Positions 2,721-21,067 of a stretch of 21,067 nt of DNA are shown here, in pieces (positions within the stretch are counted from its first letter, which is position 1; each line of letters opens with the position of its first letter). The DNA is from a virus. The translations under genes were made by a program, and so were the position numbers. The notes under the pieces are model-generated. The model saw only the letters and a list, made by a program, of their open reading frames with translations, was not told the DNA's origin and made no database searches. Where the stretch lies: the IMG/VR virus record IMGVR_UViG_3300020450_000118, positions 1 through 21,067 of that record. One strand, given 5' to 3'.

Positions 2721-2960
2721 ATGTCCTCCGAAAGAGAAAACATTATAACTTATCACATATATGCAAAAGACAGATGCTTGTATCATAATTTAAAACAAGA
2801 CGAATTTGAGGAGACATGGGAACTACTCAACGTCATGGTTGGGTTGTTAAAGACAGATATCGACGCAGATGATTTGAGTTATGAAGTTGCTGCGCCCACG
2901 GTAGGTGTTGGTGGACCTGTGAGAATATTCGCAGAACCACAAGGAGGAGATTCTTATTAA
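2721..2960 (+). CDS. Conserved hypothetical cyanophage-type protein, 79 aa
   Basis: A 79-aa acidic soluble protein. The central section (YHIYAKDRCLYHNL, about residues 11-24, then EEFEETWELLNVMVGLLKTD) matches my memory of a small family widespread in T4-like cyanophages, with the signature aKD.CLYh.L...eFe..W..Ln.mVGl.kTd. The tail is rich in Gly and Pro (APTVGVGGPVR). Function is unknown. The stop codon overlaps the next start by one base (TAATG), and the strong AAGGAGGAG for the next gene lies in its last codons, so the two are coupled. Its own start has only a weak A-rich leader. It is likely transcribed from P2. Confidence 0.75.
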   Translation: MSSERENIITYHIYAKDRCLYHNLKQDEFEETWELLNVMVGLLKTDIDADDLSYEVAAPTVGVGGPVRIFAEPQGGDSY

Positions 2961-3619
2961 TGAATAGAAATTATAACTTCTATAATCCACATAAACTTTT
3001 TTATACTCCAGTTTGGAAATTTAATGAGAGAGTACCAGAGGGTGCATATGATTGGGCAATAGAGTATTGGAAAAATAATCCAAATCCTATACAACAAGAA
3101 GTTTCTATAAATTATAGAAGTTATAAAGAGAAGGGAAGGTTTAGATCAAACTGCTATGGATACCAATCCTATTCTCAACCAGGATTGAATAATATGCCAG
3201 AAAAATATGCATTATTTCTTCAAGATGTAATGAGTGGTTTTCCTTCTTTTAGGTGGGGAAATTGGTGGATGAATATTGCACATAATGAAAAAAGTAATAA
3301 TGAAACTCATACTCATCCAGGTGCTGATTTATCTATGATATGGTATCTAACAGACAATCATGATTTATTAAGATTTTTTGATCCGATGCACCATAGCAGA
3401 ACAACATTATATCAATCTTCTAAAGAGGTATGGAATTTTTCTGGACCTGTAATAAACATGAATTGTAAGGCAGGAGATATATTAGTATTTCCTTCAGATC
3501 TTATGCATAGTGTAAAATCCTTTGAAGAATATGTTGGTGATCCTAGAATATGTTTATCATTTAATATGATATTTAATAGTCCAAACAGTTCATCGGCACA
3601 ACACTTAGTAAAAGATTGA
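2960..3619 (+). CDS. Putative 2OG-Fe(II) oxygenase, 219 aa
   Basis: Probable iron- and 2-oxoglutarate-dependent dioxygenase of the phage type (TIGR02466-like). Visible support: HTHPGADLSMIWYL (residues 117-130) gives a His-X-His followed by the start of the double-stranded beta-helix core. GDILVFPSDLMHSV (172-185) supplies the distal iron ligand candidate H183. PRICLSFN (195-202) supplies R196, the likely 2-oxoglutarate anchor. Which of H117, H119 or D123 completes the iron site cannot be settled by eye. The length is usual for the family. The start is supported by AAGGAGGAG at 2941-2949. Such genes are common in cyanomyoviruses, but their substrates are not known. The stop codon lies inside the -35 element of promoter P3. 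Confidence 0.75.
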   Translation: MNRNYNFYNPHKLFYTPVWKFNERVPEGAYDWAIEYWKNNPNPIQQEVSINYRSYKEKGRFRSNCYGYQSYSQPGLNNMPEKYALFLQDVMSGFPSFRWGNWWMNIAHNEKSNNETHTHPGADLSMIWYLTDNHDLLRFFDPMHHSRTTLYQSSKEVWNFSGPVINMNCKAGDILVFPSDLMHSVKSFEEYVGDPRICLSFNMIFNSPNSSSAQHLVKD

Positions 3620-3644
3620 CATATACATAGAATTACTCTATAAT
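3616..3644 (+). promoter_or_regulatory. Consensus sigma-70-type promoter P3
   Basis: TTGACA (3616-3621) and TATAAT (3639-3644), both perfect, are separated by 17 bases. The TGA stop of the oxygenase-like gene (3617-3619) is part of the -35 element. Transcription would start near 3651, leaving only about 16 bases before the ATG at 3667. Confidence 0.85.
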
Positions 3645-3666
3645 TGAAATGAAGTAATTACAAGTT

Positions 3667-4434
3667 ATGGCAAAAGGATTTACTGTTAAGGCCAAAGCAC
3701 CGACAAAAGAAGCTCCTAGTTGGGATATTCCTGCGATTAAGCAGAGAATGAAAGGTAAGACAATTGTATTCTGTCTACCTGGCAGAGGTTGTTCTTATAC
3801 GTTTTTAAAGAATTTTGTACAACTGTGCTTTGATATGGTACAGTCTGGAATGAGTATTCAGATATCACAAGATTATTCATCTATGGTGAACTTTGCAAGA
3901 TGTAAGTGTCTTGGAGCAAATGTTCTTCGTGGACCTAAGCAGATACCTTGGGATGGTAAACTAGAATATGACTATCAACTCTGGATTGATAATGATATTG
4001 TCTTTGATGTAAATAAGTTCTGGCAACTCTGCGATCTAGCAGTCCCTGCGAGTGGTGCTGAAAGAGAAATCGCAGCTGGCTGGTATTCCACAGAAGACGG
4101 ACATACTACCTCAGTTGCACACTGGTTAGAAGAGGATGACTTCCGTAAGAATGGGGGAGTTATGAATCATGAGACTGTTGAGTCTATGGGCAAACGCAAC
4201 AAACCTTTCACAGTTGATTATACTGGTTTCGGTTGGGTATTAATTAAGAAGGGTGTCTTCGAGAATATGGAATATCCTTGGTTTGCTCCTAAGATGCAAG
4301 TCTTTGAGTCAGGTGGAGTTCAAGATATGTGTGGTGAGGACGTGTCTTTCTGCCTAGATGCTAAAGAAGCAGGTATTGAGACATGGTGCGACCCTCGCAT
4401 ACGTGTAGGTCATGAGAAAATGAGAGTGATTTAA
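3667..4434 (+). CDS. Glycosyltransferase-like protein (GT-A type), 255 aa
   Basis: A 255-aa soluble protein that resembles a GT-A fold glycosyltransferase. KTIVFCLPGRGCSYTFLKNF (residues 31-50) looks like the first strand and helix of the nucleotide-sugar binding half. YQLWIDNDIVFD (103-114) carries a D108-N-D110 motif in the position of the metal-binding DXD. YTGFGWVLIKK (185-195) and CGEDVSFCLDAKEAG (222-236) resemble the acceptor-side and catalytic-acid segments. DPRIRVGHEK (242-251) ends with a His that often helps bind the metal. Donor and acceptor are unknown; a virion protein or host glycan is possible. It has its own promoter P3 but no visible Shine-Dalgarno. The stop overlaps the next start (TAATG). 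Confidence 0.7.
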   Translation: MAKGFTVKAKAPTKEAPSWDIPAIKQRMKGKTIVFCLPGRGCSYTFLKNFVQLCFDMVQSGMSIQISQDYSSMVNFARCKCLGANVLRGPKQIPWDGKLEYDYQLWIDNDIVFDVNKFWQLCDLAVPASGAEREIAAGWYSTEDGHTTSVAHWLEEDDFRKNGGVMNHETVESMGKRNKPFTVDYTGFGWVLIKKGVFENMEYPWFAPKMQVFESGGVQDMCGEDVSFCLDAKEAGIETWCDPRIRVGHEKMRVI

Positions 4435-4835: not shown

Positions 4836-5237
4836 GTGCCAATAGAACGGGTAAGTCAAGGTTTTAAAGATATAAGTATGACCTTTCAGTCTAATCCACT
4901 GAATGATGACCTTATTGCGATTAAAAATGAAAACGCAATTGCCCGTTCTTTGCGTAATATTGTTTTTACAACACCTGGAGAGAAGTTCTTTAACCAGTCT
5001 TTTGGTTCAAGGATCACTGAATCTCTTTTTGAGAACATAGATGAGATTACTGCTACCATTATTGTTGATGAAATTCGTCAATCAATTGATAATTACGAAC
5101 CAAGGGTAGAAGTAGATGATGTAAGAGCATTTCCTAATTATGAAAACAACAGTTTTGATGTAACTATTACATATGATGTGATTGGATCAGAGATTCCAAC
5201 ACAAGAATTACAGTTTGTTTTGCAATCTAGTAGATAA
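4836..5237 (+). CDS. gp25: Baseplate wedge protein gp25
   Basis: Member of the GPW/gp25 family, a conserved core piece of contractile-tail baseplates; once called lysozyme-like, but thought to be structural. It is 133 aa, almost the same as T4 gp25. Visible support: ARSLRNIVFTTPGEKFFNQ (about residues 36-54) followed by FGSRITESLFE matches the family pattern of R.l.n.l.T..GE...n..fGs.i...LFE. The family-typical Glu-Pro-Arg occurs at 88-90 (NYEPRVEV). It starts with GTG and has no visible Shine-Dalgarno. The stop codon is two bases from the start of gp6, with which gp25 forms the inner wedge together with gp53 in T4. A late-type promoter lies just upstream. Confidence 0.93.
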   Translation: MPIERVSQGFKDISMTFQSNPLNDDLIAIKNENAIARSLRNIVFTTPGEKFFNQSFGSRITESLFENIDEITATIIVDEIRQSIDNYEPRVEVDDVRAFPNYENNSFDVTITYDVIGSEIPTQELQFVLQSSR

Positions 5238-5239: not shown

Positions 5240-7294
5240 ATGCCATTAGCCAATTTTTCTAACTTGGATTTTGACCAAGTTAAGTCAACTTTACAAGAAT
5301 ATCTTAAATCCAACTCGAATTTCACGGATTATGACTTCGAGGGATCTAACCTGTCAACAATTTTAGATGTTTTAGCATATAATACCTACATTACTTCATA
5401 CAATGCCAACATGGTAACGAATGAAGTGTTCATCGATACTGCAACTTTAAGAAAAAACATAGTTTCACTAGCAAGAAACATAGGTTATACACCACGCCCA
5501 AGGCAAGCAGCACGGGCAACAGTATCTTTCTTTATTGATACTAGTGGAATTACCCCTATACCTGCTTCTCTGACTCTTAAGAAGGGTCCAGTTGCAGCAT
5601 CGGCAAATGCATTTGGTGGGCAATCTTTTATTTTTTCAATTTTAAGTGATATTACTGTTCCTGTTTTAAACGGAATTGCAACTTTTGATGATATTGAGGT
5701 TTATGAGGGAACTTTATTAACTCAAACTTATACTTATTCAGCAAGAGTACCAAATCAGAAATTTATTTTACCAAATATTGGTGTTGATACTGATTTAATC
5801 GCAGTTTCAGTAAAACCAACCGAAGCTTCAGCAACAGAAACGAAATATAGTTCACAAGATAGTCTTTTTGACGTAAAATCTGAGTCAAAAGTTTATTTTT
5901 TACAAGAAATTGAAGATGAAAGGTATGAAATATTTTTTGGAGATGGAATTTTTGGAAAAGCACTTGAAGATGGTAATTTTATAACAATTAATTACATAAC
6001 TTCTAGTGGTGATGCTGCAAATGGAGTAAGTTCTTTCAATTTTTCAGGAAGAATTCAATATACACGTAATGCAAACACTTATAATGTTACAACTGGCATT
6101 TCTTTGCTTACAACTGGCATAGTTGCTTCGGGTGGAGAGACAATTGAGTCTGTAGAGTCAGTTAGAAAATTTGCTCCACGAATTTATGCTTCTCAAAACA
6201 GAGCAATTACTGCAAATGACTATGAATCACTAATTCCAGCAAAAATTTATCCCGAAACAGAGTCAATTTCTGTTTTTGGAGGTGAAGATCTAATTCCACC
6301 ACAATTTGGAAAAGTGTTTATTAGCATAAAACCCAAAACTGGTGATTTTCTTCCTAATTTGGTCAAAGAACAGTTAAAATTGAAATTAAAGAAGTATGCA
6401 GTAGCAGGAATTGTCCCTGAAATACTTGATTTAAAGTATCTTTACCTTGAAGCAGATTCAAAAGTATATTTTAACTCAAATCTTGCAGAATCTGCAGAAT
6501 CTGTTTCTAGTATTATTCAAAATAATGCTAACAAGTATGCAGAATCCACTGAGATGAATAAGTATGGTGCTAGATTTAAATATAGTAAGTTCTTATCTCT
6601 TATTGATAACAGTAATGAATCTGTAACTTCTAATATTACAACAATCATTATGAGAAGGGATTTGAGAGTTGTATTAAATTCTTTTGCAGAATATTCTATT
6701 GGTTTTGGTAATGAATTTTATATTAAAAGAATGGGTGGTTATAATATTAAATCATCTGCATTTAGAATAGCTGGAATATTGAGTGATGTTTATATTGCGG
6801 ATATTCCCAATACAAATAAGTTAAATGGATCTTTATTCTTATTTTCTGTTCCTTCAATAGATTCAACATCTCCTACTATTTTGAAAAGAAATGTTGGAAC
6901 AATTGATTATAAGAAAGGGGTTGTTACTCTTAATCCAATTAATATACAATCTGGAATGATAAAAGATGGTCAAACTGTTATTGAAATATCAGCATGTCCT
7001 CTTTCTAATGATGTTATTGGATTACAGGATCTTTATTTGCAACTAGATATTAATAACAGTAACTTTGAAATGGTTGTTGATGAAATTGCTTCTGGATTAG
7101 ATCCTTCTGGTTCTAATTACATTACTTCTTCAAGTTATGCGAATGGCAGTTTAGTTCGTCCTGGTGGACGTAATGGTGCTATAACAGCAGGATCTGTTAT
7201 AACTCCTACCACAACCACAGCACGTCCTACTAGTGGTTCTACTAGTGGTTCTACTGGTGGTTCTACTGGTGGTTCTACTGGTGGTGGTTACTAA
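5240..7294 (+). CDS. gp6: Baseplate wedge protein gp6 (baseplate J-like)
   Basis: 684 aa, close to the 660 of T4 gp6, which forms the continuous ring linking baseplate wedges. The N-terminus (SNLDFDQVKSTLQEYLKSN, then DFEGSNLSTILDVLAYNTY and NMVTNEVFIDTATLR) is the typical gp6 opening. The middle carries the baseplate J-like section (YEIFFGDGIFGKAL at about residues 228-241; RKFAPRIYASQNRAITANDYE at about 312-332). The last 29 residues are a low-complexity Thr, Ser and Gly tail encoded by a 12-base tandem repeat, not expected in T4 gp6 and perhaps flexible or variable. It follows gp25 with a two-base gap. Its TAA stop is the beginning of the late-promoter motif of the next gene. Confidence 0.93.
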   Translation: MPLANFSNLDFDQVKSTLQEYLKSNSNFTDYDFEGSNLSTILDVLAYNTYITSYNANMVTNEVFIDTATLRKNIVSLARNIGYTPRPRQAARATVSFFIDTSGITPIPASLTLKKGPVAASANAFGGQSFIFSILSDITVPVLNGIATFDDIEVYEGTLLTQTYTYSARVPNQKFILPNIGVDTDLIAVSVKPTEASATETKYSSQDSLFDVKSESKVYFLQEIEDERYEIFFGDGIFGKALEDGNFITINYITSSGDAANGVSSFNFSGRIQYTRNANTYNVTTGISLLTTGIVASGGETIESVESVRKFAPRIYASQNRAITANDYESLIPAKIYPETESISVFGGEDLIPPQFGKVFISIKPKTGDFLPNLVKEQLKLKLKKYAVAGIVPEILDLKYLYLEADSKVYFNSNLAESAESVSSIIQNNANKYAESTEMNKYGARFKYSKFLSLIDNSNESVTSNITTIIMRRDLRVVLNSFAEYSIGFGNEFYIKRMGGYNIKSSAFRIAGILSDVYIADIPNTNKLNGSLFLFSVPSIDSTSPTILKRNVGTIDYKKGVVTLNPINIQSGMIKDGQTVIEISACPLSNDVIGLQDLYLQLDINNSNFEMVVDEIASGLDPSGSNYITSSSYANGSLVRPGGRNGAITAGSVITPTTTTARPTSGSTSGSTGGSTGGSTGGGY
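7229..7288 (+). repeat. 12-bp tandem repeat encoding the gp6 tail
   Basis: Four full units and one partial of ACT(A/G)GTGGTTCT lie end to end, with the first two units reading AGT and the others GGT in the middle. Twelve bases is four codons, so gains or losses by slippage keep the frame and change only the length of the TSGS/TGGS tail. Confidence 0.85.
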
Positions 7295-7348: not shown

Positions 7349-10300
7349 ATGTCTACAAAAAGAATTCAGTTTAATAACGTCGTTCAAAATCAGCTTCCTG
7401 GATATGTCAGATCAGACTATCCATTAGTTGCTGAATTTTTAAAGTCATATTATCAAGGACAGGAATATCAAGGTGGACCAATCGACTTGGTTCAGAATAT
7501 TGATCAATATACAAAAGTTAGTGAACAGGTTGGTCTTACTGACCATGTTGGATTAGGTGCTTCTATAGGTGTTGTTAATGACACCATTCAAGTTGATATG
7601 AAAAAGAATCCAACAGGAACTTTGGGATTTCCAAATTCTTATGGGTTGTTGAAAATTAATAATGAAATTATTACATATACTGGAATAACTACTTTTGCTT
7701 TTACTGGGTGTGTTAGAGGTTTTGTAGGAGTTAGTTCATATAAAAGTGATATTAATCCAGAACAATTAGTATTTGAATCTACATCTGCACAAGAGCATGA
7801 TAAGGGAGATTCTATACAAAATCTCAGTTCTCTTTTTCTTAAAGAATTTTTAGTCAAAACTAAACACCAACTTACTCCTGGATTTGAATCAAGAAAATTA
7901 TCATCAGATCTAGATCAAAATATTTTTATAAAACAATCAAAAGACTTTTATTTAAGTAAAGGTACTGATAGAGGTTTTGAGATTTTATTTAAAGCTTTAT
8001 ATAATGAAAATGTAAAAATTATAAGACCATCTGAATTTCTTTTTACACCATCTAATGCAGATTATAAGATTACTAAAGATTTTGTTGTAGAGCCAATATC
8101 TGGTGATCCAATGAATCTTGAGTTATCTACATTATATCAAGATGCGTATAAAGGAGAGAATATTGAGAAAGCATATGCTCCCATAACTCATGTTGAACCA
8201 ATTAATGTTAGTGCTGGAACTACATTTTATAAATTAAGTATTGATGCTGGATATAATAGAGATTCTAGAGTAGATGGTGCTACATATGGAACTTTTGTTA
8301 CTCCTCCTAGAACAAGAGTTATTGGAGAGGTGGGTGCTGGTATTACTTTTGTTGATGTAGACTCAACAGTTGGGTTTGGATCTATTGGAGAATTATATTT
8401 CAAATATATTGATAATACTGTAGGTGTTAGTTCTTATACGTCAAAAAGTTTAACTCAATTTTTTGGACTTACTGGAATTGGAAAGACTATTTTAAGTGGT
8501 GAAACTATTGGTATTAATACCTTTGCATATGGAAAATCTGTTGTAAATTTTGATGAAATAATTGAAGTAAGAATTACATCAGTTATAGACACTCTTGATT
8601 ATAACGATGCTAATTGTCTTTATGGAAAAGGTGATACTGTAAAAATAAAAACTTTAGGGATTGGGGATACTGGATTTAAAGTAAAAGAATGGTTTTATAA
8701 TGTTGCTGCTGTATATCAGGTTGAAAAAATTGATATTAAAGATATATCAGATTTTACTTATGAAATAACTTTAACAACTGATCATGATTTTAAAGTTGGA
8801 GATAAATCCGTTGCTGTTCTTGTTGGTAGTGATGGTAGAAACTTACCAGTATCAGATATAACACAATTAACATCTTCAAGATCTTTTATTATAAAAGGTC
8901 AAGGTGAAATTAATAGGGTTTTGGATTATACAATAGAAAGGCAAATTTTAAAATCAAATGCTATAAATTTTCCAGAGGCATCTTCATATTCTACAAATAT
9001 ACAAAATGTATATAAAGAAAAGAATACTGAAAAATTATTAATAGCATCTCCATCTATTCCAACTTATGGATCTCAGTCACTTGGTGTTAGTGATGGTAAA
9101 ATTGTCTTTAGTGGAAGTTTTAGTGGTGATGAATATGAAGTCATAACAAATGCAACAACTACTCCTTCTGGAGTTCCTATTTTTGATCATGGTTTCTATA
9201 CTGGTGATGCGATTTACTATACACCACAGATAATTAATGATGCTTATGTGGATCCCACTAGTGAAACATCTATAGATAATTTTGTTGTTAAATCATCTTT
9301 GATGGATGAGGGTCTTTATTTTGTAAAGAGGATAAATGAAACAACACTTAAATTTGCAAAAAGTGGTTCAGATCTTTATAATGAAAAATTTATCAATATT
9401 GATAATGATGGATCAAGAACTGGTATTGTAACTGATAATAAAATATCACCATTTAAATTTAATAATAAAACTTTAACCTCTCAAAAAATATTAAGAGAAG
9501 TATGCCCACCAGATAATACAGGCACATTATATGAAACTACACCTGGTCATACTGGTATATTGGTAAATGGTGTAGAAATATTAAATTACAAATCTTTTGA
9601 TCAGGTTCATTATGGAGAACTTAAGAGTATAGATGTTCTTGCAAATGGAAGAAATTATGATGTAATTAACCCACCATTCTTACATATTAAAGATTCTGTT
9701 GGAACTGGAGCAACTGGATACGTTGCTGTAGAAGGAGAATTAAAAGATATTAGAATTATTGATCCAGGATTTGATTATCAAGAAACACCTACAGTAAAAA
9801 TTACTGGTGGTAATGGATCAGGAGCTCGTGTTTCTGTAAATATGCAATCTATAGAGCATTCTGTTTCTTTTGAATCAGATTCTCCTAGAATAGGTCTTGA
9901 AACAGATTCTTCATTACCTTCTACAATTGGATTTACCACATATCATAAATTAAAAAATGCAGAAGAAGTTATATACGTTACAAATAATCAAGAGGTTGTT
10001 GGTGGGTTAACTACCAGTTCAACTTACTTTGCTGCTCTTGTTGGTACTGGGGGAACAACCATTAGACTTCATAAAGATGAAGCAGGTGTTCTTGCAGGTA
10101 TTAATACTATTGCATTAACATCTAAAGGAATAGGTAAACACTTTATAAAATCCGTTACTAAAAAATCAATAGTTGAATCTATCAATATAATTTCTGGTGG
10201 GAGTGGATATCAAAATAAAAAAAGAACTGCTACATCTTCAGGTATAGACACATCTTTAAATTGTATTAATATTACAAACCATGATTATCAATCTGGAGAA

Positions 10301-13300
10301 ATTGTCAAATATACTTGTGATGGGACACCAATAGCAGGTCTTACGACTGATACTGATTTTTATATTACTAAGAAAAATGATGATAGTTTCTATCTATCAA
10401 GTGTTGGAGTAGGAACAACTGCTAGCGATTTCTATCATAAAACTAAACAGTATAGATCTCTTACTTCTATTGGAGTTGGAACTCATACCTTTAACTATCA
10501 AGATATTAGTGTAAGTATTACTGGAGATGTTGGTATTAATTCAGTAGGGTCTGAAACTTTTGAACTTAAAGTTCAACCTATAGTTAGAGGTGAAATAACA
10601 TCTATTCATCTATCAAATAATGGTGTTGGATATGGTTCATCTGAAATTATTAATTTCGTTAGAGAACCAGAGGTAACTTTATTATCTGGATCTGATGCAC
10701 AAATAACTCCTATTGTTAGTGGTGGAAAAATTATTGAAGTTGTTGTAGAAAATAAAGGTACTGGTTATAACTCCCCACCAAACTTACAAATAAATGGTGA
10801 TGGTGTAGGATGTGTTATAACACCTATTTTAAAGATACATGATCTTAATGGAAATGAATCCTCTGTTGGTATAGGAACAACAATTAATTATGTTTTAGAA
10901 TCTGTTAATATAATTCATGAAGGAGCTGGATATAGTCAGGATACTACATCAATATCAGTTATAAATTCTGGATCGGATTGCAAAACTCGTTCTAATACTC
11001 AAAAATGGAATGTTAATTTATTTGAAAAATATTATCAAACTCAACAAATTTCTGATGATGATGGAATTATAAAAGATGGTAATATTCAACTACAATATAA
11101 TCACTTATATGCTCCTAGAAAATTAAGACAAACTGTTTATTCTACTAATCAAGAGGGTCAATCTTTATATGGTGAACCTGATTTAAGAAAAGTTAATGGG
11201 CAAGAAGTTCCATCAGATAATCATTCTCCAATTATTGGTTGGGCATACGATGGTAATCCAATATATGGACCTTATGGTTATGTAAAGAAAGCAGGTGGTA
11301 CAGTAACTCAGATGAAATCTGGGTATGTTGAAGAAGCTTTAATTAAGGAAAATAGACCACCTTTAAATGTTTTTCCTGCAGGATTCTTTACTGATGACTT
11401 TACATATAAAGCAGTAAGTGATGAAACTGTTTTAGATGAAAATAATGGAAGATTTTGCGTTACTCCACAGTATCCAAATGGAACTTATGCATACTTTGCG
11501 ACAATTGATGATTCTGGTTCCGAACAAGGTGGACAATTTAATACATTTAAATTACCAGTTTTTCCTTACCTAATAGGTAAAAATTATTATTCAACTCCAA
11601 ATGACTTTAATTTATTAACATCCTCAAATCAAGATGATTATAATTTAGAAAATACTAAATGGTGTAGAAATACTAGTCCTTATAATTTAATCTATAATAA
11701 TAAGGCGTATTACCCATATATGCCTCTTCCAAATAATTTATCCCAAACTATTGATGTTGTAGGAACTCAACCTGGTGTTTTAGAAAGTATTGGAATTGAA
11801 ACGGGTGGTAGGAATTATCAGATTGGTGATAAAGTAATATTTGATAATATTAATACTAAAGGTAGAGATGCTGCTTCAAAAGTTTCAAGACTTCTTGGTA
11901 AATCTGTAAGTAGTGTAAGTGCTGCTACTAGTAGCATAACCAACATAGAAATATATCCATCAGATCAGAAAGGAATTTATAGTATTGTTTCTACAGAACC
12001 TCATGAATGGGTTAATAGAGATATTATTACAGTTACTGGATTATCTACAACTTCTTCCGAAATTGGTGGTGTTTATAACGCTGGAATTACCTCCACTAAA
12101 CTTAGTGTAACTGGATTAGGAACTACTGCTGTTGCTATTGGTACTGATGGTGCTACAGGTATAGTAACTCATATTGATGTTCGTGGAGATTTATCAAAAC
12201 TTCAATCTAATGATCTTCTTGGAATAGGAACAGAAACTTTAAAATTATTAAATGTAGAACCTATTCTTTCTAGAATTAGAGTTCTTAGAGCTGCTAATGG
12301 TGTTACGGGAGTTTCTCATACAGTAACTTCTGAAATTCTTGAAAAACCTAGAAGACTTACTATTAATTCTGGATTTAGTTCAGATTATGAATATAGAGTA
12401 AATCAGCAAGTTTATTTTAATCCTGTTGATTCTGTTGGTTTAGGTACAAGATCTGGAGTTGGTATTGGTACTACAATTGTATTCAGTAATCCTGGAATTG
12501 GATTAACTCAAAAGTTTATTCAAACAAAAGCAATTTATCTTCCTCATCATGGATTGAAGACTGGTGATAAATTGACATATTCTCCCAATCAAGGAGAAGG
12601 TCTTAATATTAGGTGGGATGGATCAGACGCTGTTTATACAGGTATTAATACATTAACAAATGGTCAAACACTTTATGCTGCTGCCATCACTGAAGACTTA
12701 ATAGGCATATCTACTGTTAAGGTTGGTTTAGGTAGTACAGGTACTTTTGTAGGTATTGCAAGCACACAGAGGGGTAGTACAACAGTATTCTTCTCTGGTT
12801 TAGGTACTGGTGTCTATCATAGCTTTAAGACTAATTATGATGTTATTACTGGAGAAATACGTAAAGTCACTGCTACAGTTTCAACTGGTGAAACTCATGG
12901 TTTATTAAACTATGAAAATGTTTATATGAATGTTGTTTCTGGTCTTACAACAACAGTTAGTGTTAAGTATAATGATTATAATAGAAGAATGATAATTGAT
13001 CCAAAATCATTTATTGCTTCTGGAATCAATACTACTACTAATACGATTACAATAAACGATCATGGTTATAATACTGGGGATAAAATAATTCACACATCTT
13101 CCATCCCATCAGGAGGTTTGGTTGATAATGAAATTTATTACATTATAAAAGTTGATAGTGATAGTTTTAAATTATGCAAAACTGATTTTGGATCCAAACA
13201 ACCAAAACCATCTGTAGTTGGAATTACTAGTACTTCTATAGGAACAATAAATGCTATCAATCCACCTATAAAAGTCTATAAGAATTCTACTGTTGAATTT

Positions 13301-16300
13301 GATCTTACAGACTCCTCTTTGGGATATAATGTACAAACTACAAATTATCCAGCGTTTGCATTTAATTTCTATACTGATGAGAATTTAACAAAACAATGGG
13401 ATACTTCTCCACAATCCAATACTTTTAATGTTACAAGAAATGGAACTATAGGTGTATCTACTGATGCTAAAGTGACTTTATCTGTTACTAAAGATATTCC
13501 AGAAGTTTTATATTATACTTTAGATCCTGTTTTTGAAAGCACACTACCACTTATTAAAAAGGAAATATCGGTAGATATTGGAGTTTTATCTGGAAATGAA
13601 ATACAACTTAGTGATAGTCTTTATAATGGTAAACAAGTTGTAACAATAGGTGCAACTAATCAATTCTCATATACATTAAAAGATGCTCCTGAAAGAACCT
13701 CATATGGTACTACATCGTTCGTATCTTATGAAACTGATAGTCCAACCGCATATGGTGCAATTGCAGATTTTGAGATAAACAATCCTGGCACAAACTATTA
13801 TAATCTTCCTGGTATTTCTACAATTAATAGTGAGATTGGTTATGGGTGTATTATTGAAGCTAAGAGTACTTCAGTTGGAAAAATTAAAAAATTAAAAGTT
13901 AAAGATATTGGGTATGATTTCCCATCAGATACAACTATAAAACCTGATGCTGCTTTACCTCAGATTATTAAAATAGAATCTTTAATGTCTATTGAATCTA
14001 TTGGAATAACTTCTTTTGGAAGAGGATATATTTCTGCACCAGATTTAATTCTTATTGATGGAAAAACTGATAAACCAGTTTTAGATGCTGATTTAAAATA
14101 TACTTTAGGAAATCCACAAATAGAAATTTTAAAGAATACTAAAGGTATTAGTAATACACCACCTACAATTATTACAGATAAGAATAGTAATGGTATTGGA
14201 ATAGCTACTGTTGGGTTTAATACAGAAAATTATGATGTAACAGTACAATTATCTGTTGGATTTAGTACTGCTGATACATTCCCAATTGCTGTTGGTGATA
14301 AAGTCTTTATAGAAGGTGTTGGTGTAGGAGTTGGTACGACTTCAAGAGGATATAATTCTTCAGCATATGATTATAAACTTTTTGAAATAACAGCAGTTGA
14401 TCAAAATTATGGGGGAATTGGTACAGTTACATATAATCTTTCCAATTACTTTACTGGATTAGCACCTGGTATGTCAGCAGGAACATTTGATTTTGTTAAT
14501 TCTTCTGGAAGAATTGTTCCCCAGAAATTCATGCCCACTTTTAATATTAAATTGAAACCTAATGATTTTTCTGAAAATGAGATAGTTACTGGATCTATTA
14601 GTAGTACTAGAGGAAATGTTGAAAATTGGAATCCAGATACTGGTATTCTAAGGGTTACTAATACAGATGGATTTGTAAGTAATGATATTATAAAAGGATT
14701 AACTTCAGGTACTCAAGGACTTGCTTCATCTATAAAAACTTTTGATGCTTACATTAAATTAAATGCAACTTCAAGAGTAGAGAGGGGATGGGAAACTGAT
14801 TCTGGATTCTTTAATACACATATTCAAAGAATACAGGATAGTGATTATTATCAAAATCTTTCTTATTCAGTAAGTTCTAGAATTGATATGGAAACATGGG
14901 ATGATCCAGTTTCTACTTTAAATCATACATTAGGATTTAAAAAATTCTCTAATTATCAATTAGAATCAACTTCTTCTGCTAGAGTAGGATTGTCTACAGA
15001 ATTATCTGATGTTTCTGTAGTAAATGATCTTTATGGTATTGGTAATTTAAATTGTGTATATGATTTTGATTTAGTAACTGAAAACTCTTTTGATATTAAT
15101 GTTGATGATTCTGTTTCTGACCAAATAACTTTCTCAAGTAGAATTCTTGAGGATTATTCTGAATCTATTGGAAATAGAGTAGTATCCATAGATGATTTTA
15201 GTAGTACTTTTAATAGTAATCCTAGAGCTACAAGATTCTCTACTATTAGTAGATTTAGTTTGTCAGAAAGAAGAGCATTAAAGTATATTACTTACGTAAG
15301 GGATAAAAGATTTGGTGCTCAAAGACAATTGATGATCGTTGATATTATTCATGATACTACTCAGGGATATATCAATCAATATGGAAGAGTTGAATCTGTT
15401 TATGATCAGGGAGATTTTGATTTTGCTATTTCTGGTAGTGAAGGTCAATTAAATTTCTATCCTGTAAAATATTCTGTTAATGATTATTTTGTTGCTAGTC
15501 TTTCTTACAATTTAGATGATAATTTATTAAGTACTGGTAGTACTGTTATTGGTCCTTCTTTAGTTGATTCGGAGAGTGCTGCAATTGGCACTGGGGTTGC
15601 ATCTACTACTATTGTTGGTATTGCAAGCACTTATAGATCTGCAAAAGTTATTATTAATATTAATCCAGATATTAGTGGTAAGGAGCATGAATTTAATCAA
15701 TTGAATATTATTCATAATGATGATGAAGTTGATATAATGGAGTATGGAAGATTGACAACTGTTAATACTCCAGAATCAATTGGTGGATTGGGTACTTATC
15801 GTGGTTATATTGATGGGTCTATTTTAAAAGTTGATTTTATTCCTAATTCTAGTGTGGGTATAGGAACAACTGGTGTTATTAATACCATTGTTGTTGGTAT
15901 GGCAGATTCTACTTCTACAGGTATTGGAACAGTTGATCTTAAACATGCAAGGTTAGAATCTAGAACAACTGCTATTGATTCTTCTTCATCACCAGGAATT
16001 ACTACTATTGGTGAATATCCTTCAGATTATGAATCTGCTTATGGAACTATTCAGGTTACTGATGCAACAAACCAAGTTTATTCTATGTTTGAATTTGCTG
16101 TAGTTACTGATTATGTTGATGGATCTACGACAGAAACATATGATGTAGAATTTGCTAATGTATCTTCTGGAGTTTCTCCATCTGGATTAGGAACTTTTGG
16201 AACAAAAGTATCTTCTGCAGGAACTGTTTCCTTACTCTTTACTCCTATCGCAAGTATTAATGCACAAGTAAATGTGTATATGAATGCTATACGAATACAG

Positions 16301-19300
16301 GATGATACAAAGGATAATATTGATTTTAATAATGGAACTATTGAAAGTTCATTTGGTGATTACACAGGAACAGAAAGCAGTGTTTTAAGAGAATTTGGAT
16401 TAACACATAAAACTGATCCAATTTTCAGAAAACCATTTGATGGTAGTAACACTGGAACAGTTGATACTACTAATAATACTATTAATCTTCCAAATCATTT
16501 CTTTGTTACTGGTGAGGAGCTTGTTTATACAAATCCAGGTACTGGATATACTATGGCACTTGGAATTGCTAGTACGAGTGGATTTGCTGGAATTGGTACA
16601 ACTACTTTATTACCAAGCACAGTATATGCAGTTAAAGTTGATGATGAAACCATTAAACTTGCAGAGAGTGTCTCTAAGGCACTTCAGACCGTTCCAGAGG
16701 TTGTTGATATTACAAGTGTAGGTATTGGAACTTCTCACTGTTTCAATGCTGTTAATCAGAATAAGAAAGCATTAATTACCTTAGATAATATTATTCAGTC
16801 TCCTATTGTATCTACTGCAATAACGACTCATTTGGCAGATCAAGTATTTACTACTGATGATCTTATAGAGTTTTCTGGAATAACATCATTCTTTGGTGGA
16901 GACTTAATTAAGATTGGAAATGAAATACTTAGAATTGATAGTATTGGTCAGGGAGGTAATGATAATCTCATTAGGGTTAGAAGACCTTGGGCAGGAACTG
17001 CTTTAGCGGGATATGGTACAGGAACTTTAATTACTAAAGTAGATGGTAATTATAATATTGTTGATAATACATTAAACTTTGTAGAAGCACCTTATGGTAA
17101 TGTTCCTTTAAGCACTTCTACCAATCCACCAGATTCTAGAGATTGGGTAGGAATTGCAACAGGATCTAGTTTTGAAGGAAGAACATTTATGCGTTCTGGT
17201 GTTCCTGATACAGCAAATGAACCATATTATAGGAATTATATTTTTGATAGCATTTCTTCTCAATTTACAGGACAAGCATCAGACTTTATATTAAAATCAA
17301 ATGGGTCTGATGTTTCGGGAATTGTTACTGATAATGCTATTATTCTTATTAATGATGTTTTCCAAACTCCAAATATAGATGGGCAAGGTATTACTAACGA
17401 ATATAGTATTATTGAAGATGCGACTGTTGGTGTAACAACAATTGCATTTACTGGTACTGCAAGTTCTACTACTGATGTAAATGTAGGAAATCTTCCTAAA
17501 GGTGGAATACTTGTTTCTGTAGGTTCTAGTGAAGGATTTGGATATCAACCTTTAGTGGCTGCAGGTGGAACAGTTACTGTTGCTGCTGGTGGTACTATTA
17601 AGTCTATTAGTATTGGTAATACTGGTTCAGGTTATAGAGCAGGTATTCAAACGGTTAATGTTGGTATACAAACTATTAGTCGTCCTGGTACTAATGTTAT
17701 AGGTATTGGCACAGCACAAATAACAACTGGTAGTATTACAGGGGTTGCTGTTACTAATGCTAATCATATATTCTACTCACCTAGAAAAGTAGCAAATGTT
17801 GGATATAGTTCTGTAACTGGTATTTCTACAATTACTACTCAAACTAATCATGGATTATCATCGGGTGATGAAGTAGTATTATCGGGTATTGCCTTTACTT
17901 GTGATTACTCTCCAGCTCTTGGAATTGCTACTGTTGGTTATGGAACAGCAACTGGTATCATGACAGTTACTACAGTTGGTGCTCATGGATTCTCAACAAC
18001 TGGTCAGAAGAGTGTTGTAATCTTTAGTGGATTAGGATTTACATGTGCTTTAGATGCTGGAGCAAATATCCACTACTATCCAAGAGGTGAAGATAGAGCA
18101 TATAATACTTCAATATCTATTGTTGGTACATCTAATACTACAATAACAATTGATGTTGGATACTCTGGTGCTAGTGATCAATCTACTCATCAATTTGTAA
18201 GTGCTACAGATAATGCTGTCATTAGTGGAGGAGATTATGATCATAGATTTGTAAGTGCAAATTCTGGTGCAATAACTGAAGCAAATACAGGATTAGGATA
18301 TACACCATCAAATGCGATCTATGATGGTCCTAGTGGAATCATGACGGTTACTGTTGCTAATCATGGTCTTACTACATCTAACGTTGTTTCTATTGCTCAG
18401 AGCAGTATAGTCTTTAGATGTTCAATGGATGATTTTTCATCATTACATCCATACCCTCGTGCTACTGATCCAATTGTAGGATTTGGAACGACAACTATCA
18501 CTGCTACTACAACAAATACATTCTCACTTAATGTTGGTGTATCAACAATAGTTAATTACAATATTTCTACTGCTGTATACAGTGCATCATCAGGTATTTT
18601 GACGATGACACTTGGTAGTGGTGGTGCATTACATGGTCTAACAACTGGAACAAGTATAAAACTTTCTACAGAGTCTCTATCATTCAGATGTTCTAAAGAT
18701 AGTTATGCTTCTGTTCATAAGTATCCAAGAAAACCAGATCCTTATTATACAGGAACTAATGTTACATCTGTTAATAGCACTACTCAATTTGAAGTTAATG
18801 TTGGTATATCAACAGTTCTAAGTCACTATGTTGGATTTGGTTCTGTTCAATCTGCCATCATAGCTCCTAGATTGAATAATAATTCAGCAAGTAAATTTGA
18901 TGTTGCAGCAAATGGAAGTGAAGTTCTACGTGTTATTGATAGTAAGACATTTGAAACTCAAACTGGAATATCAACTAGAAATCACATCTATGCTAGAGGT
19001 GGATATGTAAATGGATATAATAAAGTAGTCTTTGATGATCCATTATCTTATAGTAATATTCCTTTAGAATATAGTGATACATCTGCTGGAATTGGAACAA
19101 ATGCTACAATTGATATAGTTGTTGGACAAGGTTCTAGTGTTATTAGTTTCACTATTCAAAATACTGGTAGTGGATATGGTAACCTTGAGAAACTAACTGT
19201 TCCTATTGGTGGTACTACAGGTATTCCAACTGATCCAAGCAAAACTTTCACAGAGTTTGTAGTTGATATTGAAAAAGTCTTTAGTGATGAGTTTACTGGA

Positions 19301-20938
19301 TGGTCTGTTGGTCAATTAGAAGTTCTTGACAATATTGAAAGATATATTGATGGAAGTAAAACTGAGTTTGAATTGACACTTAATAATGCCTCTATTTCAA
19401 TTGTTGCCAAGAAAGGATCGAAGATTGATGTTCAAGATGTCCTTTTAGTATTTGTTAATAACATCCCTCAAGTTCCTGGTAAAGGATACAAATTCCCTGG
19501 TGGTAGTGTAATCACATTTACTGAAGCACCTAAGAAAGGTGATACAATTGAAATTCTTTTTTATAAGGGAACTGGTGGTCAAGACGTTGTTGATAGAAAG
19601 GTTATAGAGACTGTAAAACCAGGTGATGACTTAACTATTGGACGCTTAATATCTCAAGATAATTGGTTGCAAGAAGTTGCTAGAGTTCCTATTAGTGTAG
19701 ATTCTACAGATCGTGTTTCTACTCCACCATATTATGGTCCAGGTAATAGTAGTGATTCAACTTTAGAAAGACCAATTAATTGGTGCAGACAAACTGAAGA
19801 TAGGATTATTAATGAAAAAGGTGTAGGTAAAGATAGGGAACTTTATGAACCTGTTATCAATCCTTATTCACCTATTATCAAATCTGTTGGAATAGGATCA
19901 ACAGTCATTTATGTAGAAAATGCAAGACCATACTTTGATCCGCAAGATGAAGTTAATCAACTTCCTGCTTTACTAGTGGATAGTGATTTTGCTTTCCAGA
20001 AAAAAGTTAAGTTTGATTCTCAAGAAGATAAAATTGGTGCTGCTGGTACTGCAATAGTATCTGGTCTAGGAACAATTTCTTCTGTTGCTATTTCTACTGG
20101 TGGTGTTGGTTATAGCACTGCTACAGTTAGTTTTGCTACAACATCAATAGGTGGAAATGAAGTTGGTGTTGGTTCAACATCCACAACTGCTTTTGGATCA
20201 CCAATAATTGGTGCTGATGGTACTATAACAGGTATTGCAATTACAAGTGTTGGTGTAGGATATACATCATCCAATCCACCAGCGATTCTTATAAGTCCTC
20301 CAACAATAACTGAAGAAGAAAATAAAGTTGATTACTATCAAGGTGATTCTGGTATTATTGTTGGATTTGGTACTACTACAATTGGAGCTGGTTCAACTAA
20401 CTACCAGTTAATATTTGATTTACATATTCCTCTGACATCAGATCTAAGAGATTCTAGTATTGCTGGAACTGGAGTTACTATTAGTGGAATATCTACTGGT
20501 GATTTCTTTATAGTTAATAATTCCACAGTTGGTGTTGCAACTACATCAATTAATTCTGTAGATACTGGTGGTGCTGTTATTGGAGTTGGAACTCAATTCC
20601 TAAATAACGTTTATGAAGTTAATAATTATGAAATAGTTCAAGCTCCAACTGGAGTTGAAACTACGGGGGTTGGAATAGGCACAACTCATCTTAATAGGGT
20701 GTTTGTTAAAGTAACCAACTTCAATACTTGGAGTGGTCAATGGCCATCTTTCAATGGTGCTGGTATTCAAACTGGTAATTACTTTGGATCATATAGTTGG
20801 GGTAAAATTAATTTAACCTCCAGATCTGAAAGTAATACTTATAACGCATATACTTTAGGTGGAACAGGTGGAATTTCTACTTCTATGGTAGTAAGAAGAT
20901 CCCAATCACTTAAATATAAGGATTATAGAACTCCTTGA
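7349..20938 (+). CDS. Giant modular baseplate/tail structural protein at the gp7 position, with YHYH-like domain, 4529 aa
   Basis: One uninterrupted frame of 4529 codons between gp6 and gp8, the place of gp7 in T4 (1032 aa). The N-terminus (QLPGYVRSDYPLVAEFLKSYY, residues 15-35; FYLSKGTDRGFEILFKALYNE, about 200-220) is a conserved opening of large phage structural proteins. A YHYH-like domain (about 1290-1410) has GWAYDGNPIYGPYGY and LDENNGR. Repeated modules include HG..TGD units (near 614, 977, 1734, 1905, 3050), many G.GY...P beta units, and numerous VGIGTT motifs. GWETDSGFF (2480-2488) opens a non-repeated section. Three YPR units lie near 3577, 3702 and 3792, and LVFVNN...Q.PG..Y at 4033-4048 resembles a marine phage fibre domain. 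Probable role: wedge component and extended tail surface. No Shine-Dalgarno; late promoter upstream. Homology to T4 gp7 itself is not shown; the assignment is by position. Confidence 0.85.
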   Translation: MSTKRIQFNNVVQNQLPGYVRSDYPLVAEFLKSYYQGQEYQGGPIDLVQNIDQYTKVSEQVGLTDHVGLGASIGVVNDTIQVDMKKNPTGTLGFPNSYGLLKINNEIITYTGITTFAFTGCVRGFVGVSSYKSDINPEQLVFESTSAQEHDKGDSIQNLSSLFLKEFLVKTKHQLTPGFESRKLSSDLDQNIFIKQSKDFYLSKGTDRGFEILFKALYNENVKIIRPSEFLFTPSNADYKITKDFVVEPISGDPMNLELSTLYQDAYKGENIEKAYAPITHVEPINVSAGTTFYKLSIDAGYNRDSRVDGATYGTFVTPPRTRVIGEVGAGITFVDVDSTVGFGSIGELYFKYIDNTVGVSSYTSKSLTQFFGLTGIGKTILSGETIGINTFAYGKSVVNFDEIIEVRITSVIDTLDYNDANCLYGKGDTVKIKTLGIGDTGFKVKEWFYNVAAVYQVEKIDIKDISDFTYEITLTTDHDFKVGDKSVAVLVGSDGRNLPVSDITQLTSSRSFIIKGQGEINRVLDYTIERQILKSNAINFPEASSYSTNIQNVYKEKNTEKLLIASPSIPTYGSQSLGVSDGKIVFSGSFSGDEYEVITNATTTPSGVPIFDHGFYTGDAIYYTPQIINDAYVDPTSETSIDNFVVKSSLMDEGLYFVKRINETTLKFAKSGSDLYNEKFINIDNDGSRTGIVTDNKISPFKFNNKTLTSQKILREVCPPDNTGTLYETTPGHTGILVNGVEILNYKSFDQVHYGELKSIDVLANGRNYDVINPPFLHIKDSVGTGATGYVAVEGELKDIRIIDPGFDYQETPTVKITGGNGSGARVSVNMQSIEHSVSFESDSPRIGLETDSSLPSTIGFTTYHKLKNAEEVIYVTNNQEVVGGLTTSSTYFAALVGTGGTTIRLHKDEAGVLAGINTIALTSKGIGKHFIKSVTKKSIVESINIISGGSGYQNKKRTATSSGIDTSLNCINITNHDYQSGEIVKYTCDGTPIAGLTTDTDFYITKKNDDSFYLSSVGVGTTASDFYHKTKQYRSLTSIGVGTHTFNYQDISVSITGDVGINSVGSETFELKVQPIVRGEITSIHLSNNGVGYGSSEIINFVREPEVTLLSGSDAQITPIVSGGKIIEVVVENKGTGYNSPPNLQINGDGVGCVITPILKIHDLNGNESSVGIGTTINYVLESVNIIHEGAGYSQDTTSISVINSGSDCKTRSNTQKWNVNLFEKYYQTQQISDDDGIIKDGNIQLQYNHLYAPRKLRQTVYSTNQEGQSLYGEPDLRKVNGQEVPSDNHSPIIGWAYDGNPIYGPYGYVKKAGGTVTQMKSGYVEEALIKENRPPLNVFPAGFFTDDFTYKAVSDETVLDENNGRFCVTPQYPNGTYAYFATIDDSGSEQGGQFNTFKLPVFPYLIGKNYYSTPNDFNLLTSSNQDDYNLENTKWCRNTSPYNLIYNNKAYYPYMPLPNNLSQTIDVVGTQPGVLESIGIETGGRNYQIGDKVIFDNINTKGRDAASKVSRLLGKSVSSVSAATSSITNIEIYPSDQKGIYSIVSTEPHEWVNRDIITVTGLSTTSSEIGGVYNAGITSTKLSVTGLGTTAVAIGTDGATGIVTHIDVRGDLSKLQSNDLLGIGTETLKLLNVEPILSRIRVLRAANGVTGVSHTVTSEILEKPRRLTINSGFSSDYEYRVNQQVYFNPVDSVGLGTRSGVGIGTTIVFSNPGIGLTQKFIQTKAIYLPHHGLKTGDKLTYSPNQGEGLNIRWDGSDAVYTGINTLTNGQTLYAAAITEDLIGISTVKVGLGSTGTFVGIASTQRGSTTVFFSGLGTGVYHSFKTNYDVITGEIRKVTATVSTGETHGLLNYENVYMNVVSGLTTTVSVKYNDYNRRMIIDPKSFIASGINTTTNTITINDHGYNTGDKIIHTSSIPSGGLVDNEIYYIIKVDSDSFKLCKTDFGSKQPKPSVVGITSTSIGTINAINPPIKVYKNSTVEFDLTDSSLGYNVQTTNYPAFAFNFYTDENLTKQWDTSPQSNTFNVTRNGTIGVSTDAKVTLSVTKDIPEVLYYTLDPVFESTLPLIKKEISVDIGVLSGNEIQLSDSLYNGKQVVTIGATNQFSYTLKDAPERTSYGTTSFVSYETDSPTAYGAIADFEINNPGTNYYNLPGISTINSEIGYGCIIEAKSTSVGKIKKLKVKDIGYDFPSDTTIKPDAALPQIIKIESLMSIESIGITSFGRGYISAPDLILIDGKTDKPVLDADLKYTLGNPQIEILKNTKGISNTPPTIITDKNSNGIGIATVGFNTENYDVTVQLSVGFSTADTFPIAVGDKVFIEGVGVGVGTTSRGYNSSAYDYKLFEITAVDQNYGGIGTVTYNLSNYFTGLAPGMSAGTFDFVNSSGRIVPQKFMPTFNIKLKPNDFSENEIVTGSISSTRGNVENWNPDTGILRVTNTDGFVSNDIIKGLTSGTQGLASSIKTFDAYIKLNATSRVERGWETDSGFFNTHIQRIQDSDYYQNLSYSVSSRIDMETWDDPVSTLNHTLGFKKFSNYQLESTSSARVGLSTELSDVSVVNDLYGIGNLNCVYDFDLVTENSFDINVDDSVSDQITFSSRILEDYSESIGNRVVSIDDFSSTFNSNPRATRFSTISRFSLSERRALKYITYVRDKRFGAQRQLMIVDIIHDTTQGYINQYGRVESVYDQGDFDFAISGSEGQLNFYPVKYSVNDYFVASLSYNLDDNLLSTGSTVIGPSLVDSESAAIGTGVASTTIVGIASTYRSAKVIININPDISGKEHEFNQLNIIHNDDEVDIMEYGRLTTVNTPESIGGLGTYRGYIDGSILKVDFIPNSSVGIGTTGVINTIVVGMADSTSTGIGTVDLKHARLESRTTAIDSSSSPGITTIGEYPSDYESAYGTIQVTDATNQVYSMFEFAVVTDYVDGSTTETYDVEFANVSSGVSPSGLGTFGTKVSSAGTVSLLFTPIASINAQVNVYMNAIRIQDDTKDNIDFNNGTIESSFGDYTGTESSVLREFGLTHKTDPIFRKPFDGSNTGTVDTTNNTINLPNHFFVTGEELVYTNPGTGYTMALGIASTSGFAGIGTTTLLPSTVYAVKVDDETIKLAESVSKALQTVPEVVDITSVGIGTSHCFNAVNQNKKALITLDNIIQSPIVSTAITTHLADQVFTTDDLIEFSGITSFFGGDLIKIGNEILRIDSIGQGGNDNLIRVRRPWAGTALAGYGTGTLITKVDGNYNIVDNTLNFVEAPYGNVPLSTSTNPPDSRDWVGIATGSSFEGRTFMRSGVPDTANEPYYRNYIFDSISSQFTGQASDFILKSNGSDVSGIVTDNAIILINDVFQTPNIDGQGITNEYSIIEDATVGVTTIAFTGTASSTTDVNVGNLPKGGILVSVGSSEGFGYQPLVAAGGTVTVAAGGTIKSISIGNTGSGYRAGIQTVNVGIQTISRPGTNVIGIGTAQITTGSITGVAVTNANHIFYSPRKVANVGYSSVTGISTITTQTNHGLSSGDEVVLSGIAFTCDYSPALGIATVGYGTATGIMTVTTVGAHGFSTTGQKSVVIFSGLGFTCALDAGANIHYYPRGEDRAYNTSISIVGTSNTTITIDVGYSGASDQSTHQFVSATDNAVISGGDYDHRFVSANSGAITEANTGLGYTPSNAIYDGPSGIMTVTVANHGLTTSNVVSIAQSSIVFRCSMDDFSSLHPYPRATDPIVGFGTTTITATTTNTFSLNVGVSTIVNYNISTAVYSASSGILTMTLGSGGALHGLTTGTSIKLSTESLSFRCSKDSYASVHKYPRKPDPYYTGTNVTSVNSTTQFEVNVGISTVLSHYVGFGSVQSAIIAPRLNNNSASKFDVAANGSEVLRVIDSKTFETQTGISTRNHIYARGGYVNGYNKVVFDDPLSYSNIPLEYSDTSAGIGTNATIDIVVGQGSSVISFTIQNTGSGYGNLEKLTVPIGGTTGIPTDPSKTFTEFVVDIEKVFSDEFTGWSVGQLEVLDNIERYIDGSKTEFELTLNNASISIVAKKGSKIDVQDVLLVFVNNIPQVPGKGYKFPGGSVITFTEAPKKGDTIEILFYKGTGGQDVVDRKVIETVKPGDDLTIGRLISQDNWLQEVARVPISVDSTDRVSTPPYYGPGNSSDSTLERPINWCRQTEDRIINEKGVGKDRELYEPVINPYSPIIKSVGIGSTVIYVENARPYFDPQDEVNQLPALLVDSDFAFQKKVKFDSQEDKIGAAGTAIVSGLGTISSVAISTGGVGYSTATVSFATTSIGGNEVGVGSTSTTAFGSPIIGADGTITGIAITSVGVGYTSSNPPAILISPPTITEEENKVDYYQGDSGIIVGFGTTTIGAGSTNYQLIFDLHIPLTSDLRDSSIAGTGVTISGISTGDFFIVNNSTVGVATTSINSVDTGGAVIGVGTQFLNNVYEVNNYEIVQAPTGVETTGVGIGTTHLNRVFVKVTNFNTWSGQWPSFNGAGIQTGNYFGSYSWGKINLTSRSESNTYNAYTLGGTGGISTSMVVRRSQSLKYKDYRTP
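17803..18880 (+). repeat. Tandem YPR modules within the giant gene
   Basis: About 3.5 related protein units lie side by side. Each has an HGL.T or HGFST start, an F.C cysteine segment, a Tyr-Pro-Arg (residues 3577-3579, 3702-3704 and 3792-3794) and a section ending in NVG.S or similar. The second and third units differ in spacing (125 and then 90 residues), so they have diverged or gained insertions. The first unit seems to lack its YPR half. Confidence 0.7.
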
Positions 20939-20975: not shown

Positions 20976-21067
20976 ATGGCTGCCATAATAACTGATCAGA
21001 TAAGAATATTAAATGCAAAGAATTTTATTGCTGGAGTAACTTCTAGTACGAATGCATATTATTCTTT
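20976..21067 (+). CDS. gp8: Baseplate wedge protein gp8, N-terminal part (cut by window end)
   Basis: Thirty complete codons run off the right edge. The opening, MAAIITDQIRILNAKNFIAG, and the following SSTNAYYS are what I recall for gp8 in T4-like cyanophages, and the position after the gp7-site gene fits. In T4, gp8 is a dimeric wedge protein that binds gp7 and gp10. A late-type promoter lies just before it; no Shine-Dalgarno is seen. Confidence 0.85.
   Translation, partial: MAAIITDQIRILNAKNFIAGVTSSTNAYYS

Follow-up and report, generated by a model that had tools for sequence, protein, structure and literature searches.

A giant gp7 orthologue of a T4-like marine cyanophage: a short wedge core, a scaffold rich in beta units and one hotspot that gains and loses blocks

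The window analyzed here, a virus record of 21,067 bases, carries on its plus strand baseplate genes in the order gp25-gp6-gp7-gp8, the same order as in Bellamy, S-SM2, P-SSM2, and P-HM2. The wedge genes gp25 (4836..5237; Pfam PF04965, E=5.4e-16; phrog_261, 9.6e-52) and gp6 (5240..7294; Pfam PF21379, E=2.7e-16; phrog_219, 5.2e-191) precede a single open frame (7349..20938) that encodes 4529 aa (~487 kDa), 4.4 times the length of T4 gp7 (1032 aa). The original prediction had put this frame in the place of gp7, and the start of gp8 does follow it at 20976: the first 30 codons (20976..21067; the window end cuts the rest) read MAAIITDQIRILNAKNF..., similar to the Bellamy gp8 start. All features of the giant frame described below lie on the plus strand as well. 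Upstream of gp25, a 2OG-Fe(II) oxygenase gene (PF13759, E=1.2e-14) occupies 2960-3619, and oxygenase genes are annotated upstream of gp25 in P-SSM2 as well. The end of gp6 (7227-7285) contains a twelve-base tandem repeat of 4.9 copies encoding a Ser-Thr-Gly-Gly tail that extends past the phrog_219 match (aa 3-613 of 684).

Over aa 2-4523, the giant protein matches positions 6-4177 of the 4179-position profile of phrog_2885 ("baseplate wedge subunit"; E=0, 3801.7 bits). The phrog_2885 member of Bellamy, protein 111, is collinear with it for almost its full length (56% across aa 1-3470, 59% across aa 3893-4526), and gp7 of Bellamy, S-SM2, and P-SSM2 has the same neighbor genes. A tblastn search with aa 1-1000 matched 466 of 50,697 phage records, mostly of Synechococcus and Prochlorococcus phages, and among the 60 matches listed many are labeled baseplate wedge initiator or subunit. 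Searched by sequence against the PDB, the whole protein gave no match at E<=1. We built a profile from its first 750 aa and 52 viral-contig homologues and compared it with 23 chosen proteins; it matched aa 725-758 of T4 gp7 (E=1.6e-9), aligned to window aa 191-224, with nothing else significant in T4 gp7. Outside T4, it matched proteins of Xanthomonas phage X1 (498 aa) and Melnitz (896 aa). A second profile (A4, hereafter the N-terminal profile) from aa 1-430 and 35 homologues (36 rows) was run on seven whole genomes and matched all of them (T4, X1, Melnitz, HTVC008M, S-PM2, S-H34, and Syn33). Its single match in the T4 genome is short (35 residues) and lies inside gene 7 (E=2.5e-9), with T4 gp7 scoring 27.0 bits and shuffled T4 gp7 at most 8.0 (1311 of 2000 shuffles reported). 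In the other six genomes, the gene after gp6 was matched (X1, E=3.8e-19; Melnitz, 1.3e-23; HTVC008M, 6.7e-17), with one extra match to a 61-residue stretch of Syn33_094. Because gene 7 is the only match of the N-terminal profile in the T4 genome, the window gene is, on the evidence of its sequence, a genuine gp7 orthologue of a T4-like marine cyanophage.

By these profile matches, what is shared with T4 is just the ~300 N-terminal residues of the 4529 aa, a small and ancient core to which about 4,000 residues of beta modules are added. The wedge core at aa 166-300 (7844..8248) is matched in T4 gp7, X1, Melnitz, and HTVC008M, while the conserved N-terminal helix at aa 12-36 (7382..7456) is matched in X1 (498 aa), Melnitz (896 aa), and HTVC008M (I899_gp055, 1016 aa), which thus have both helix and core in common with the window protein. 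T4 gp7 (5IV5, 5HX2) likewise follows gp6 and precedes gp8; in it, the extra sequence stands before the core, whereas here it stands after. The proposal that the N-terminal part holds the wedge function agrees with a conserved core, common to T4 gp7, at that end of the protein, and wedge function probably resides there. The protein is of a known kind, a cyanophage gp7 whose size is ordinary for the phage group, and giant gp7 is already annotated, with gp7 named in GenBank for several cyanophages.

Our results contradict a published account. According to the accessible part of PMC7029224, cyano- and pelagimyophages lack T4 Gp7, for which VrlC appears to substitute, and that of PMC3037559 states that gp7 is so divergent among non-cyanophages that several clusters resulted; gp7 is among the few baseplate proteins of T4 for which these accounts treat the counterpart in marine T4-like phages as absent or as too divergent to cluster. 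The absence from cyanomyophages given in PMC7029224 is contradicted by the core present in the gene after gp6 of the cyanophages tested, and the pelagiphage HTVC008M has the core there too. VrlC as a substitute was considered and dropped, since the gp7 core sits in the gene after gp6 and VrlC of HTVC008M, S-PM2, S-H34, and Syn33 gave no match to the N-terminal profile (HTVC008M VrlC reached 8.8 bits, the level of shuffles). In the HTVC008M protein itself (I899_gp055, L098:33435-36485), which is annotated "head closure Hc2" and lies between gp6 and gp8, the profile detects both helix and core of gp7 (E=6.7e-17 and 1.4e-6), and this protein is likely a misnamed gp7.

An AlphaFold2 model of aa 1-1040 (pLDDT 71.1, pTM 0.40) has helices at aa 8-38, with low pLDDT there. 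Compared with the PDB, it matched KP1 9f4a_A0 (Z 7.3, 2.5 A, 80 aa; 235-411 to 761-840) and T4 5iv5_BJ (Z 7.2, 3.5 A, 83 aa; 240-418 to 765-849), both in a register that departs by no more than ~9 residues from that of the sequence alignment. Both entries hold gp7, and from this and from their lengths we infer that chains BJ (1004 residues) and A0 (1031) are gp7. Unrelated rows (top Z 9.9) stand above these two, which come at ranks 31 and 32, so that structure alone would not identify gp7; the two rows at most corroborate the gp7 identity.

Across 13 phages, the gene in the gp7 slot spans 498 to 6378 aa: X1 498, Melnitz 896, HTVC008M 1016, T4 1032, S-H34 1942, S-PM2 3048, Bellamy 4067, S-SM2 4156, P-HM2 4454, this window 4529, P-SSM2 5195, Syn33 6376, and S-RIM2 6378 aa. 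One wedge protein thus tolerates a 12-fold range of length around the gp7 core. Judging from the positions of the core, additional sequence appears to have entered at more than one place: ahead of the core in T4, behind it in the clade of the window, and also within it in Syn33, in which the helix and the core are ~500 aa apart (profile matches 5-108 and 612-1069). The ~500 aa between helix and core (aa 108-612) in gp7 of Syn33 and S-RIM2 form a second growth place.

Behind the core lies a scaffold of ~3,770 residues that is rich in two kinds of beta unit, A and B, and near constant among near relatives. The original prediction had described a giant frame made of recurring units, and both the frame and the repeats are real. 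In 1000 shuffles of the protein, the motif HG..[TS]GD (four copies) had a mean of 0.01 and a maximum of 1, VGIGTT (four copies) a mean of 0.01 and a maximum of 2, [VI]G[IVL]G[TS][TS] (ten copies) a mean of 0.09 and a maximum of 2, and G.GY followed by P after 2-5 residues (four copies) a mean of 0.29 and a maximum of 3; the looser GY pattern G[GVSTFRN].[GND]Y was at chance level (4 copies; shuffle mean 2.54, maximum 8). Unchunked self-BLAST returned the full-length self-match only, and we therefore cut the protein into chunks, which gave 37 off-diagonal matches at E<=0.01; five copies with local shuffling gave 1, 2, 1, 2, and 0. Profiles of three units count six A (HG..TG(D/E)...YYV...KLA), seven B (GGSGY..P), and four C (HG..TG...YPR) units; they matched nothing once the 42 proteins searched were shuffled or reversed. 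These same proteins had served to train the profiles, so the counts depend on them.

The A units lie at aa 594-679 (A1, 9128..9385, profile E=2e-14), 841-917 (A2, 9869..10099, 1e-14), 957-1026 (A3, 10217..10426, 1e-20), 1709-1797 (A4, 12473..12739, 7e-15), 1885-1952 (A5, 13001..13204, 2e-22), and 3029-3114 (A6, 16433..16690, 2e-20). The B units, of the G.GY..P type, lie at aa 682-877 (B1, 9392..9979, 4e-26), 1027-1237 (B2, 10427..11059, 4e-29), 1405-1578 (B3, 11561..12082, 4e-9), 2061-2214 (B4, 13529..13990, 1e-22), 2207-2320 (B5, weak, 13967..14308, 0.001), 3347-3512 (B6, overlapping the edge of the hotspot described below, 17387..17884, 2e-20), and 4171-4362 (B7, 19859..20434, 2e-25). The C units are grouped at aa 3479-3523 (C1, partial, 17783..17917, 3e-8), 3524-3610 (C2, 17918..18178, 4e-28), 3651-3736 (C3, 18299..18556, 3e-30), and 3737-3825 (C4, 18557..18823, 1e-30). 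A YHYH domain (PF14240, E=7.4e-22) occupies aa 1287-1387 (11207..11509). The expectation that both ends of the protein are unique holds for ~aa 1-590 but not for the C-terminal part, which contains B7. Unlike the window protein, T4 gp7 has no match to the A, B, or C profiles, and gp7 of X1 and Melnitz has no A or C units and three and two matches, respectively, to the B profile.

The repeats had been attributed to amplification; as a claim of recent duplication, this is not supported. Six A units are present in 27 of 30 viral-contig proteins, seven in two, and three in one, which begins at an internal Met. Among 47 good C copies, 38 are in proteins with more than one copy, and for 36 of these 38 the closest copy belongs to a different protein, often in the equivalent place along the row. 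Because the closest copies sit in other proteins, the C units are, to judge by these comparisons, mostly positional orthologues, old and distinct blocks that are gained and lost rather than freshly multiplied. That recent tandem amplification of one module lengthened the gene is therefore very improbable, and we dropped it: the several copies of each unit fit it, but the fixed copy number of A speaks against it, the nearest-copy pattern contradicts it for C, and a search for tandem repeats in the DNA found no array within the gp7 gene, with both of its rows falling in gp6.

What varies among near relatives is a stretch at aa 3471-3892 (17759..19024; 422 aa here, 12 aa in Bellamy, 106 aa in S-SM2). 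Viral contigs were scanned for the best 80 of at least 595 relatives, which represent the near clade rather than a random sample; of these 80 loci, 12 had no ORF bearing the YGPYGY anchor, 37 had ORFs that ran off the contig, and 31 were complete. One short ORF (L050, 1564 aa) was excluded from the module counts and one with an internal Met start (L072, 3130 aa) from the hotspot statistics, for which 29 viral-contig ORFs together with the window, Bellamy, and S-SM2 were used (n=32). Between window aa 3470 and 3893, 14 of the 32 have 12 aa, 6 have 45-177 aa without C matches, and 12 have 189-520 aa with C matches. Full length varies with a standard deviation of 190 aa, compared with 4070 +/- 68 aa for length minus the hotspot gap; length correlates with the gap at r=0.94 and the gap with the C count at r=0.95. 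Homologues thus vary in length through gain and loss of modules, as the original prediction implied, with the hotspot running from 12 to 520 aa. Relative to 31 relatives, 70 of 75 gap runs of at least 40 aa (alignment segments, not counted events) begin at 3431-3900, that is, 58 at 3440-3900 and 12 at 3431 or 3435, with five elsewhere. In the alignment of 32, conservation on either side of the hotspot equals that of the remaining protein, and the GC content of the hotspot (0.351) is not unusual compared with same-size windows of the gene (0.321 +/- 0.021). The empty site of Bellamy falls in a B-type G.GYT...PP stretch, and the block therefore interrupts a B-type unit. A relative that is 89% identical to the window protein (L100) has the same block start, with 97% identity across aa 3401-3600 up to where its contig ends, and the hotspot therefore does not change at every step. 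Altogether, the alignments show that near relatives keep the scaffold and appear to differ mainly at one hotspot, which gains and loses blocks, often C modules.

C modules are not confined to gp7. They were matched at 691 places in 264 phage records and occur in giant proteins outside the gp7 slot, with four copies in Syn1_101 and two in ACG-2014j_028; none was matched in eight other giant or neighboring proteins (two cut by the locus end). ACG-2014j_028 is labeled short tail fiber, yet its Pfam scan has no collar domain, and the next gene has that domain. In ACG-2014j, a 4057-aa structural protein (L096:1829-14002) has a Phycobilisome match at aa 904-952 (E=0.00045, 20.7 bits, cut-off 22.2) that may be chance. 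Six PHROG families match the C region; two of them, phrog_5342 (1.9e-27) and phrog_17885 (1.5e-14), are labeled tail fiber, and the remaining four carry no fiber label. In a model of aa 3380-4529 (pLDDT 72.4, pTM 0.36), the best rows for the C-module region reached Z 7.8 (FCWL1 connector and phi92 endosialidase) and none of 983 chains reached 8; we take the fold to be a common small beta-barrel and draw no function for the C modules from it. Most matches in a viral structure library were to other giant proteins of cyanophages, with Bellamy gp7 at rank 1.

Directly behind the hotspot, aa 3977-4091 (19277..19621) form a well-conserved domain (62% mean column identity in 36 sequences), of which 106 phage records have a single copy each. 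It matches residues 10-88 of phrog_18673 (tail fiber, E=5.5e-8), and its profile matches the K1 capsule depolymerase 9k4a (whole-sequence E=2.5e-8, single stretches 0.045 and 0.024). In the model, this part resembles the N-terminal domain of T7 gp17 (Z 7.4), LME-1 (7.3), and CBA120 TSP4 (7.1), and tail parts of T5 and HRP29 (6.5). Because all Z values are below 8, the fiber-anchor reading is a lead, not proof; the three lines are weak to moderate, and the domain weakly resembles fiber anchors. Likenesses to phrog_5342, phrog_17885, phrog_18673, T7 gp17, and CBA120 TSP4 are local and mostly weak, and the domain lies near the C-terminus of a wedge protein here, whereas in fibers it is at the N-terminus. 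The best Pfam row for it was DUF2460 (E=0.033, below its cut-off), and no fiber domain reached its cut-off in the Pfam scan of the window protein.

We consider it probable, with some reserve, that the protein combines a gp7 wedge core with a beta scaffold and an exchangeable C block that modifies display or attachment and hence host contact. In this model, the ~300-residue N-terminal core would assemble with gp6 in the manner known from T4, the beta scaffold would build a large outer layer or an arm of the wedge, and the part around aa 3977-4091 would serve as an attachment point of the kind used by tail fibers and tailspikes. The exchangeable C block would modify what is displayed or attached there, and through it host contact. 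The original prediction went further in suggesting that the modules form a protruding fiber that touches the host. Such a fiber would be in line with the C region common to tail fiber families and with the fiber-anchor-like domain near the C-terminus; neither model gives the overall shape of the protein or fixes the placement of domains, and a projecting fiber is thus possible only. Given the gp7 place, the orthology, and the module gain and loss, neither a constant length of homologues nor a location outside the baseplate was found, and that interpretation as a whole is partly supported, with baseplate membership among the supported parts. We speculate, with more doubt than we attach to the combined core, scaffold, and block, that in cyanomyophages gp7 has absorbed the fiber-bearing periphery of the baseplate into a single chain, with a fixed beta arm that ends in a fiber-anchor platform and one swap site for tail-fiber-type blocks whose exchange alters host contact; adaptation would then take place inside a core baseplate protein, not in separate fiber genes.

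The same elements could be arranged without contact of the C block with the host. In a reading that we hold to be rather unlikely, the A and B units pack as a compact skirt of the wedge or a second baseplate layer without a protrusion, and the hotspot would be a permissive loop on the surface that takes up spacer domains and has no role in host contact. A packed scaffold predicts the near constant A count in the 30 viral-contig relatives and the conserved flanks, the frequency of the empty 12-aa state (14 of 32) implies that the block is dispensable, and the accessible part of PMC7029224 favors a baseplate of two layers for these phages; the recurrence of C modules in other giant structural proteins and in tail-fiber families, and the anchor-like domain directly behind the hotspot, argue against it. 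It is also possible, though we doubt it to a similar degree, that gp7 stands in for gp10-gp12; its C-terminal part would be the covalently fused form of an attachment platform built in T4 from separate proteins, with separate fibers bound to it and a C block that does not touch the host. The anchor-like domain at aa 3977-4091 fits this arrangement, as do the lack of annotated gp9-gp12 between the gp8/VrlC-like and neck genes in Bellamy, in contrast to Syn33, in which gp7 is followed by a gene annotated as gp9 and by another wedge protein, and the description of T4 in PMC3004832, in the part available, according to which gp10 carries the short-fiber attachment and gp7 is a monomer present in six copies. 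The absence in Bellamy, however, rests on annotation in one stretch of one genome, and T4 gp10 was unmatched by the profile of the first 750 aa and gave no row for the C-terminal model.

Support for giant gp7-like proteins in particles comes from other phages. A 6619-aa, 724-kDa "baseplate wedge initiator" (S-SZBM1_208), which adjoins a wedge subunit in locus number, is reported with 71 peptides in S-SZBM1 virions (PMC9146016), and the product of a 5.8-kb wedge gene (S-CREM2 ORF122) with 91 peptides in virions (PMC10665884); S-H34, a relative of S-CREM2, was matched by the N-terminal profile. Proteins that by description may be likened to giant gp7 are thus reported in purified virions of other phages; the accessible text of both papers does not discuss modules or the size of the wedge protein. 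If the six copies given for T4 in PMC3004832 hold, gp7 would add ~2.9 MDa to the baseplate. The literature covered in part on cyanomyovirus baseplate structure, "baseplate wedge initiator", and modular cyanophage tail repeats contained no description of the gp7 modules or hotspot that we recognized, and evolution studies of S-PM2d and S-TIM4 (PMC9910659, PMC6224464) report many mutations in baseplate and fiber genes, with gp7 unnamed in the parts available. What is notable is a core located across a 12-fold range of length, a single exchange site with an empty state, and the conflict with the published absence. The hotspot is one named site with a natural empty state at which the gain or loss of modules can be related to host range, and a role in host contact is testable with phages that differ only there. 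Finally, a further recurring unit, of the type FPDS.GLLKIDDEIITYTG...FTGC.RG, lies at window ~aa 66-132 and recurs in Syn33_094 (L088:20497-25662, aa 1271-1323) and, near the C-terminus, in S-PM2 gp7 (L091, aa 2904-2950).
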